From Paludisphaera borealis (GTDB lineage: Bacteria; Planctomycetota; Planctomycetia; Isosphaerales; Isosphaeraceae), in the NCBI RefSeq assembly GCF_001956985.1, contig NZ_CP019082.1:2914001-2978000 (forward strand): 64,000 nucleotides of DNA. Reading direction: 5' to 3'. Position 1 is the first letter of the stretch, and every line of letters starts with the position of its first letter. Positions 37,174-56,412 of the stretch are shown piece by piece. The translations under genes and the position numbers were made by a program. Under the pieces are notes generated by a model that saw only the letters and a program-made list of their open reading frames with translations, was not told the DNA's origin and ran no database searches.

Positions 37174-38133
37174 TCAGTCTTCGTCGTCGTCCTCTTGGGC
37201 GTCCGGGTGCAAATCGTCGTCGGGATCAAAGAACAGGTCGCCCAGACCGAGCGGCGCGTGCCTCTCCCCCATCGATCCGCGCTTGCGGCGCGCGAGGTCT
37301 TCGAGGTTCACGGCGTCGTCGCCGAGGACGCATGCGAGCGCCTCGCGCCAGGCGGCGTCGCGACCGAGCGGATGGTTCGTGTCCTGCGCCATCCGCTTAA
37401 TGGCGTACCGCAGGATGTTGAGCCCGTCGCGCGGCGAGAAATCGAGCTTCAGCTCGTGAGCCTGCTGGAGGAACTCGACCGTCAGGGCCAACAGGTCGGT
37501 CTCGGCGAACGGAAGGTGGTACTTGAGGATCGCCATCTCGTCGTCGCGGGCCGGGAAGCCGAGGGTCAAGGTCGGCTGCAACCGCGACAGGATGTAGTCG
37601 GGGACTTCATAGGTCGATTCGTCTTCGTTCATCGTCACGCAGACGCGGAAGTCGGGATGGGCGTGGAGCGTGATCCCGGCCACGACGCTCTCGGCGTACC
37701 GCCTGTGGTCGAGCAACGGCGCGAGGCTCGCCCACGATTTCTCGTTCATCCGGTTCCCCTCGTCGAGCACGCAGACGCCCCCCACGAGCATCGCCGTGAC
37801 CAGGGGCGAGGCGTGGTAGGCGATCTTGCCGTTCTCGGCCAGGACCGGCGTGACCAGCAGGTCCTCGGGGCGGGTGTCGGCGGTGCACTGGGTGATATAG
37901 AGCGGCTGACCGCGGAGCTTGGCGGCGGCCATCGCGAGCGTCGTCTTGCCGATACCCGGCGGACCGATCAGCCGGGGCGAGAGCGGTCGATCGCGGGGAT
38001 CGACCACCAGCCAGCAGGCCGACAACTGCCGCAAGACTTCGTCCTGGCCGATCCAGCTCTGGTCGGTCGCGTCGGGCTCGCCCAGGTGGAGAACCACGCC
38101 GCCGACTTCCACTCGCTTCCTGACGTCGTTCAT
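37174..38133 (-). CDS. MoxR-type AAA+ ATPase
   Basis: 319 residues. It has Walker [11 protein letters not shown] near residue 55, Walker [11 protein letters not shown] near residue 112, sensor-1 [14 protein letters not shown] near residue 150 and an arginine-containing IPxxLLSRL-like region ([13 protein letters not shown]). The C-terminus is very acidic. MoxR ATPases act as chaperones that remodel complexes, often with a VWA-domain partner, which is absent here. The ATG at 38133 is used; an ATG at 38196 with GGGAC upstream is an equal alternative. Divergent from the Uma2-like gene. Confidence 0.88.
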
Positions 38134-38360
38134 GGGCAAGGTGTTCCGTAGTCCCGTCGCGGGCGTTGCGCCGCGTTCTTGTGGATTTTCATGCATCAAT
38201 CGTCCCGGCCGTCGTGTTATGCTCACGAGTGTAATCGTTTCCGACGCGGGGAGCGAGCCAGGCCGCCAGCGACGGCCGCAAAACACGTCGGTCTCGCCAG
38301 TCGTTGAAGTCCGGTTGCGATCACTGTCGACGTTCCGAGTCATCTCCAGGAGATTCTCTC

Positions 38361-39248
38361 ATGGCGACGAAGACCCCCAATACAACGCCGAACGAACCGA
38401 ATCGCCCCACCGCGTCCCGCGCCAGGTCCAAGGCCGATGCGGTCGACTCGAAATCGGCGGCTCCCGCGCGGCCGAAGGGCGTCGCGGCCAAGCCCACCGC
38501 GAACGCCAAGCCCAAAGCCGCGCCGGCCGCGAAGGCCGAGGCCGCCGCGAAGCCGAAACCGAAGCCGGCCAAGTTGACGGCCGCGGCTTCGGACGCCTCG
38601 AAGACTCGCAAGGCGCCGGCGCCGAAGGCCGCTCACGCCAAGCCGGCCGTGAGTAAAGAGCGCCCGCATGCGTCCGAAGCCTCGCGGATGGCGAGTCGCA
38701 AGACTTCGGCCAAGAAGACGAGCGCGGGGAGGGCCGACGACCGCGATGCTTCGACCGGACTCCAAACCGTTCAGCCGGAAGCGACCGCCTTCGAGAACCA
38801 CGTCGTCAAGACACTGTTCGATTCGCTCGAAGCCCACGTCGCGGCCAACGAACTCGGTCACGTCGTCGGCCCCAAGCAGTTCGATCTGGGAGCCGGCGAG
38901 CCGACCGGCCGGCTGCCCGACATCGCGTTCGTCTCCTTCGACCGCTGGGCGCAGTACCGCCGCGTGCCGTCCCACGACCGCTGGCACGTCGCGCCCGATC
39001 TCCTGGTTCAGATCGTCCGCAAGGGCGAGCTGGCAGAGGATTTCACCTTCCAGCTCGACGACTGCTTCAACGCCGGCGTCCGTCGCGTCTGGCTGCTCTT
39101 TCCCGACAAGGGCGAGGCCCGCGTCTACCAATCTCCGACCGACGTCCACACGCTCAACGACGATCAGGCGATCGAAGGCGGCGACGTCCTGCCGGGCTTC
39201 CAGCATTCGCTCGTCCTATTGTTCCGCGAGCCGCAAGCCGGCGAGTGA
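38361..39248 (+). CDS. Uma2-like protein with histone-H1-like N-terminal tail
   Basis: 295 residues from the ATG at 38361 (AGGAG about 8 nt upstream). Residues 1-125 are a low-complexity lysine/alanine/proline tail of the histone H1 or Hc1 kind (for example KPKPKPAKLTAAASDASKTR), expected to bind DNA. Residues 145-290 match the Uma2/DUF820 restriction-endonuclease-like fold: RLPDIAFVSFDRW, APDLLVQIVRKGE, FNAGVRRVWLLFP. The PD aspartate is kept, but the usual glutamate (VEV) is Q and the usual lysine ahead of the Y-x-x-x-GV region is Q, so nuclease activity is doubtful. Function unknown. Confidence 0.75.
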   Translation: MATKTPNTTPNEPNRPTASRARSKADAVDSKSAAPARPKGVAAKPTANAKPKAAPAAKAEAAAKPKPKPAKLTAAASDASKTRKAPAPKAAHAKPAVSKERPHASEASRMASRKTSAKKTSAGRADDRDASTGLQTVQPEATAFENHVVKTLFDSLEAHVAANELGHVVGPKQFDLGAGEPTGRLPDIAFVSFDRWAQYRRVPSHDRWHVAPDLLVQIVRKGELAEDFTFQLDDCFNAGVRRVWLLFPDKGEARVYQSPTDVHTLNDDQAIEGGDVLPGFQHSLVLLFREPQAGE

Positions 39249-39585
39249 ATCGTCAGACGGCAAGGCGCCCAATACAAGCCCGAAGCGCCAGCGAGTGCAT
39301 CCTCCCGGCCGGCGGGCCGAGTACGCGAACGCAAAACAATGCACTCGCAGACGCTTCGAGCTGCTCTGAAAATTCCGGTTTGTGGTTTGCCGTAGGGGCG
39401 CCCCTTGTGGGTGCCCGATCGCCGAGCGGTCGGCGTGAAACGAACCGGGCCCCCACCAGGGGCGCCCCTACCGGACCTGGTCGTGACGCCATGCGAAAAG
39501 CCCCCCATTTTCATGAGGCCGGGCGTCGCCACGGCGTCATGATGGTTTGAATTCGGAGGCCGGGCGTCCCCGCGACGTCGGCGCA
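39249..39585. repeat. Composite palindromic repeat region
   Basis: Two unrelated palindromes sit back to back. The first has 20-bp arms CGAAGCGCCAGCGAGTGCAT (39281-39300) and 39339-39358 with two mismatches; its translated form contains the 'SPKRQR' tell-tale seen in many planctomycete intergenic repeats. The second has 25-bp arms at 39392-39416 and 39447-39471, two mismatches, with a GTAGGGGCGCCCCTTGTGGG core. A related second copy of the latter lies at 56300-56384. No gene is seen here. Confidence 0.75.
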
Positions 39586-39614
39586 TAAAAAAAGGGAGCC
39601 GACGAATCGGCTCC
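39586..39614 (-). terminator. Intrinsic terminator of groL
   Basis: On the minus strand a perfect 9-bp stem GGGAGCCGA / TCGGCTCCC with a TTCG loop is followed by seven T (39586-39592). It lies 33 bp past the groL stop codon and is the cleanest terminator in the window. Confidence 0.9.
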
Positions 39615-39647
39615 CTTCTTCATTTCCGTATGGTGTATTGATCAGGA

Positions 39648-41270
<1,623 letters not shown>

Positions 41271-41405
41271 CTTGCTTTGATCTCCCCACACCAAAAGGTG
41301 AAAGTGTTCGTGTTTCCGCGATCCCCGACCACGTGATTCATGCGCTCAAGCCGCCGCGCGGCGGCCGGCTCGGCCCCGCTCAGCACGGCTCGGCTCGATC
41401 CGGCT

Positions 41406-56242: not shown

Positions 56243-56412
56243 TAGAGCGGTTAACCTTTGAGTCGCGCACAGCAGGGGCGGCCGGAAGACCGCGTGACTG
56301 TAGGGACGTCCCTTGTGGGCGCCCGAATTGCGGGGCCGCCGCGGTCGCCGACGCCGATCGGGCGCCCACAAGGGACGCCCCTACGTGTGCAGCCCAAACG
56401 CGAACCGCTCTA
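56243..56412. mobile_element. MITE-like element with nested palindrome
   Basis: A 170-bp unit bounded by perfect 10-bp inverted repeats TAGAGCGGTT (56243-56252) and AACCGCTCTA (56403-56412). Both ends carry TA, so the repeats can be read as GAGCGGTT with a TA target duplication, as in IS630/mariner-type MITEs. Inside sits a second palindrome with 25-bp arms (56300-56324 and 56360-56384, one mismatch) related to the one at 39392-39471. It has no coding capacity. Confidence 0.65.

Follow-up and report, generated by a model that had tools for sequence, protein, structure and literature searches.

The window analysed here is a stretch of 64,000 nucleotides from the genome of Paludisphaera borealis. 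Strain PX4 is a wetland planctomycete of the Isosphaeraceae, and its genome comprises 7,651,896 bases in three contigs (a chromosome of 7,497,544 and two others of 111,833 and 42,519). A gene on the + strand at 38361-39248 encodes a protein of 295 amino acids with a basic N-terminal tail and a Uma2 domain, hereafter the tailed Uma2 protein. An AGGAG sequence resembling a Shine-Dalgarno site was read directly at 38348-38352 (+ strand), 8 nt before the ATG, and third-position GC is 0.85 in the tail part and the domain part alike, as expected for coding sequence. Since the 295-codon frame is intact, is preceded by a ribosome-binding site and has even third-position GC, these features argue for a translated gene. 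A scan for sigma-70-type promoters returned no site for it. An origin of the tail by frameshift was considered and rejected, the open reading frames in other frames, read by eye, lacking the Uma2 first strand.

The gene is flanked upstream by a divergent AAA_5-type gene (37174-38343), which we take to be MoxR-like, with a STAS-FHA gene beyond it, and downstream by a convergent GroEL gene (39648-41294). Orthologues of both flanking genes were found in all five congeners compared, with 80-83% identity for the AAA protein and 91-92% for GroEL. They lie on one contig in two congeners, about 370 and 740 kb apart, and on different contigs in the other three, where the 7.4-9 kb around the AAA gene did not contain GroEL, nor the surroundings of GroEL the AAA gene. 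On the same side of the AAA gene, four of the five congeners carry genes labelled from their translations as alpha/beta-hydrolase-like, methyltransferase-like and permease-like, and the fifth has different content. The tailed Uma2 protein had no match in the ten congener stretches around the AAA and GroEL orthologues. The interval 37174-41294 is a synteny junction, the adjacency of the AAA gene and groEL not being found in any of the five congeners. Since the flanks were not found adjacent in the congeners and recurring repeats lie between the gene and groEL, the locus marks a rearrangement junction that, within the set compared, is private to P. borealis.

Two inverted repeats of different genomic families occupy the space before groEL. 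The first, just 3' of the gene at 39277-39362, is imperfect, with 24-nt arms that are 88% complementary. Its motif AAGCGCCAGCGAGTG, which we label REP-like, was present in 24 of the stretches of the P. borealis genome examined, the window included, and frequently as two copies in opposite orientation some 40 nt from each other. The second, at 39392-39471, has 26-nt arms that are 92% complementary and forms a strong hairpin (z -4.5). Its palindrome GTAGGGGCGCCCCT occurred at seven independent places of the genome, including the window, among the stretches examined, as opposite pairs 63-70 nt apart in three of them; a copy with one mismatch lies at 56371-56384 of the window.

Composition, the structural model and, for its end, alignments place the Ala/Lys/Pro-rich tail at approximately residues 1-127 (38361-38741, + strand). 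The remainder of the protein matches Pfam Uma2 (PF05685) at residues 139-281 (38775-39203, + strand) with a score of 49.7 bits, where the cut-off is 27; this is the weakest of the 24 Uma2 matches of the genome. An AlphaFold model built with 18 relatives gave a mean pLDDT above 90 in 11 of the 16 ten-residue blocks from residue 141 and 72-84 in the rest. In VIA-align this predicted model aligned with the solved Uma2/DUF820 structures 9y1l, 6okh, 3ot2 and 1wdj with Z of 19.9, 19.6, 19.4 and 19.0, respectively, the next-best Z being 11.5, indicating that the predicted fold is of the PD-(D/E)XK type common to these structures. The proposal of an earlier note on this DNA that a Uma2-like fold follows the tail is thus borne out by both profile and structure comparison.

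The same note had read two of the three catalytic positions as glutamine, and alignment to Uma2 families agrees. The passages of PMC551604 on COG4636 predict a site of the form PD - EXX - K with two practically invariant carboxylates. They describe the Lys as moved to a neighbouring helix, with variable placement and variable adjoining residues, and the nuclease activity of the family as a prediction. In the tailed Uma2 protein the Asp of the PD motif is retained as Asp187 (codon 38919-38921), Glu is replaced by Gln217 (39009-39011) and the migrated Lys, present in 31 of 35 clade relatives, by Gln231 (39051-39053), all on the + strand. Glu was kept in all 35 clade relatives and the complete D-E-K in 30 of them. 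Among 76 Uma2 rows, 59 had D-E-K, the tailed protein alone had D-Q-Q, one had D-Q-R and the remaining 15 showed other changes or were fragments; the rows, taken from a set of 100 loci, contain some fragments, count one gene or more twice via overlapping loci, and leave out two matches of the same genome at C1 559442-560568 that gave no score. The alignments revealed no intact triad elsewhere in the protein at the sequence level. These comparisons indicate that the tailed protein is a Uma2 member by descent and by predicted fold that departs from the predicted catalytic pattern, and its Uma2 fold is likely non-catalytic.

The D-Q-R row is a Uma2 paralogue of a congener (L024; G005 C38:33139-33825) that belongs to another clade. 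It has lost both Glu and Lys, apparently an independent disarming of the Uma2 site.

Conservation was reduced beyond the site as well. Of the 51 columns with a conservation of at least 85%, the tailed protein keeps 32 in a row that began at residue 137 and so excluded the first strand, and 33 once a longer row had aligned that strand; the relatives keep 40-51 of 51-54. The first strand, YE-V-V-x-G in the relatives, aligns as Arg128-Asp129...Gly133 and is divergent, with Gly133 kept. Thirteen columns are identical across the 35 clade relatives; three of them are changed in the tailed protein (first-strand Glu to Asp129, Glu to Gln217 and Ser to Arg220). Loss was not significantly concentrated in the triad (2 of 3 positions versus 17 of 48 other conserved columns; Fisher p 0.55).

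It could be argued that the protein has remained a nuclease or nickase and that its site has been rearranged, in which case Asp187 might act with Asp129, Lys221, Glu223, Glu226 or Asp227, for example, and the tail would raise affinity for DNA. The variable placement of Lys and of the residues around it in COG4636, as described in the passages of PMC551604, leaves room for such a site; Asp129 is still a carboxylate, and several charged residues follow Gln217. However, one of the two carboxylates which those passages call practically invariant is lost, as is the Ser at position 220 that is invariant in 35 of 35 relatives, and we consider residual cutting, by these residues or others, improbable.

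Sequence searches found no orthologue of the gene in the five congeners or in 39 other genomes of the family. Among the matches listed (59 relatives and 45 family genomes) none exceeded 42% identity except the gene itself, and the 42% match spans 108 residues; the top-scoring homologues were 31-40% identical and came from other genera of the family, for example Singulisphaera acidiphila (L107), whose Uma2 protein has the intact D-E-K pattern. A search at the level of the order yielded the same 45 genomes. A scan of genome contigs that used the full-length protein as query recovered no relative, and an alignment-based scan of genome contigs found 35 loci with 27-40% identity; the plasmid search gave one record, with 33% identity. 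Among the titles listed for papers mentioning Uma2, none concerned a tailed, degenerate Uma2 protein, and no paper was found that joined 'Uma2 family' with planctomycetes or that contained three of four pseudoenzyme terms. The gene looks species-specific. In a tree built from the 65 rows that reach 140 residues or more, the tailed protein fell within a clade of 36 rows (98/92), and the other 19 Paludisphaera rows, in which each congener is represented only by its best match to the tailed protein, were all outside. Its terminal branch is the longest of the clade, at 1.49 changes per site where the median is 0.32, and because of this long branch its exact place in the tree is unsure.

Since no orthologue was found, selection in favour of the tail or of the altered site is unsupported, and relaxed selection also fits the long branch and the reduced number of conserved columns. 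It is quite possible that the gene is a decaying or neutral orphan, that is, a Uma2 gene drifting after its use was lost, with a low-complexity N-terminal expansion of no particular role. The failure to find an orthologue in five congeners, the longest terminal branch of the clade, the location among repeats at a junction that congeners do not share and five other Uma2 rows of the same genome with a changed Glu or Lys position are all in keeping with such a gene. On the other hand, its 295-codon frame is open, has a ribosome-binding site and shows even third-position GC, and at 10 of the 13 columns that are invariant in the relatives, mostly Gly, Pro, Trp and Phe, the protein is unchanged.

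The earlier note had also described a tail of 125 residues rich in Lys, Ala and Pro, and this description holds with a slight change in length: the first strand can be aligned from residue 128, and the tail proper therefore ends near residue 127. Residues 1-130 contain 29% Ala, 15% Lys and 12% Pro and no aromatics, with a net charge of +20 and a calculated pI of 11.5, whereas residues 131-295 have a net charge of -11 and a pI of 4.7. The ten-residue blocks of the tail had mean pLDDT of 43-57 in the AlphaFold model and are predicted to be unstructured. A low-threshold scan for 60-residue stretches with at least 15% K and at least 45% K+A+P, covering 1.664 of the 7.652 Mb of the P. borealis genome as six-frame stop-to-stop segments 80 aa or longer, retained 11 of 10,490 segments, and K+A+P exceeded 75% in two of the 10,490, the tailed Uma2 protein and one other. 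The tripeptide AKP occurs four times in the tail, against a mean of 0.7 in shuffled sequences (reached in 7 of 2000 shuffles), and KPK three times. The motifs PAKK, KAAK, PAKKA and S/TPKK were each absent from residues 1-130. The likeness to histone H1 that the earlier note had seen therefore stands as a likeness of composition, accompanied by predicted disorder, and does not extend to H1 motifs.

No comparable tail was seen on other Uma2 proteins. Ahead of the Uma2 domain the tailed protein has 20 Lys, compared with at most six in the other 75 rows. Of the 35 clade relatives, 27 had a longest Met-started leader of 15-62 residues; several begin MAT or MST, and in none of the 35 does the leader contain more than two Lys. 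A search with the tail alone in 45 genomes of the family matched nothing besides the gene itself. With such a tail on none of the 75 other rows and no orthologue found, the result comes close to the absence from orthologues that the earlier note had named as counting against its proposal.

Proteins with tails or leaders of similar composition do occur in the genus. An HU-family protein of P. borealis (PF00216, 57.3 bits; L173:11709-12083, + strand, G000 C1 5131709-5132083) has an N-terminal AKP-rich leader and is conserved in five of five congeners with 75-80% identity. A small H1-like protein without Pfam match (L161:8660-9157, - strand, G000 C1 3528660-3529157) carries a C-terminal tail with 88% K+A+P over 60 residues. 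It has matches in five of five congeners (54-60% identity, E 2.7e-17 to 5.1e-5), which are partly composition-driven, the heads being alike by eye. HC2-type histones, which have a Lys/Ala/Pro-rich composition, were looked for and set aside: HC2 (PF07382) was matched in none of the six genomes of the genus, and the Pfam scan of the tailed protein returned Uma2 only.

A possible origin of the tail as a copy from the small H1-like gene of P. borealis was examined, and comparison of the tail with these proteins gave a mixed picture that is driven by composition. At the DNA level, local alignment with the H1-like gene scored 68; codon shuffling of the whole tail reached this score in none of 200 trials, and shuffling of the tail core in 4 of 1000. 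The score of the tail core against the homologous H1-like genes of the congeners was reached by 2, 6, 7, 16 and 24 of 60 shuffles, and that of the whole tail against the HU gene by 35 of 200. At the protein level the score was reached by 32 of 200 shuffles against the H1-like protein and by none of 200 against HU. We infer that the tail grew out of a leader like the short, neutral one seen ahead of the domain in the relatives, which became longer.

The tailed protein thus resembles known systems in part. With Uma2/DUF820/COG4636 (PF05685) it shares the Pfam match, the predicted fold (Z 19.0-19.9) and the Asp of PD, but it has Gln at the Glu and Lys positions, a divergent first strand and a basic tail of about 127 residues, a combination found in none of the other 75 Uma2 rows. 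With mycobacterial HupB and the AKP-leader HU of the genus it shares a Lys/Ala/Pro-rich tail on a small folded domain, but its folded domain is a nuclease relative and its tail lacks PAKK and KAAK, and according to a passage of PMC5676037 the PAKK/KAAK tail domain of HupB is needed for association with the nucleoid. From histone H1 and linker histone-like tails it has the disordered, basic Lys/Ala/Pro-rich segment without PAKK, KAAK or S/TPKK, and with chlamydial-type HC2 it has composition alone in common. HupB, the AKP-leader HU and the small AKP-tailed protein offer an analogy for tail-mediated binding of nucleic acid.

On balance our tentative preference is for a species-specific Uma2 paralogue that has become an orphan pseudonuclease and whose polybasic tail would be a non-specific binder of nucleic acid, although a drifting orphan accounts for the observations almost equally well. 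In the pseudonuclease reading, cutting of DNA would have been lost and the tail would attach to DNA (or RNA) through its charge and without specificity, in the manner of the basic tail of HupB. The Uma2 fold would remain as a body that does not cut and that perhaps serves for dimerisation or for weak docking on DNA. The net charge of the domain is -10, more acidic than most relatives (mean -4.5, range -12 to +1), and it is therefore not an obvious DNA-docking body. A tail of +20 and a domain of -11 within one chain, the tail being predicted unstructured, could also point to another use of the tail, such as contact with RNA or the ribosome, with membranes or with acidic polymers, or folding of the tail onto the acidic domain as an arm that aids solubility or is autoinhibitory. 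The sequence gave no signal for any such use, however, and the similar tails of the genus occur on HU and H1-like proteins; such uses appear doubtful.

If the pseudonuclease reading is true, a proliferating nuclease-like family would have given rise to a DNA-binding protein that does not cut, assembled from elements already in use in the genus, namely the AKP tails on HU and on the small H1-like protein. A further step would be recruitment of the disarmed fold as a nucleoid protein whose tail coats DNA and whose dead Uma2 body bridges or marks cut sites of active Uma2; such a protein could also protect the chromosome against the 23 other Uma2 copies of the genome. We regard this recruitment as unlikely. 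The role in nucleoid organisation in planctomycetes that the earlier note had suggested is unsupported. As matters stand, the tailed Uma2 protein is one protein in one species and has no bearing on planctomycete nucleoid organisation in general.

For the question of the planctomycete nucleoid, the conserved AKP-tailed HU and H1-like proteins are a better handle. Both look like better nucleoid candidates than the Uma2 relative, and the small AKP-tailed H1-like protein is a strong candidate. A further short protein (L187:4230-4625, - strand), without Pfam match, has a charged N-terminus rich in Lys, Asp and Glu.
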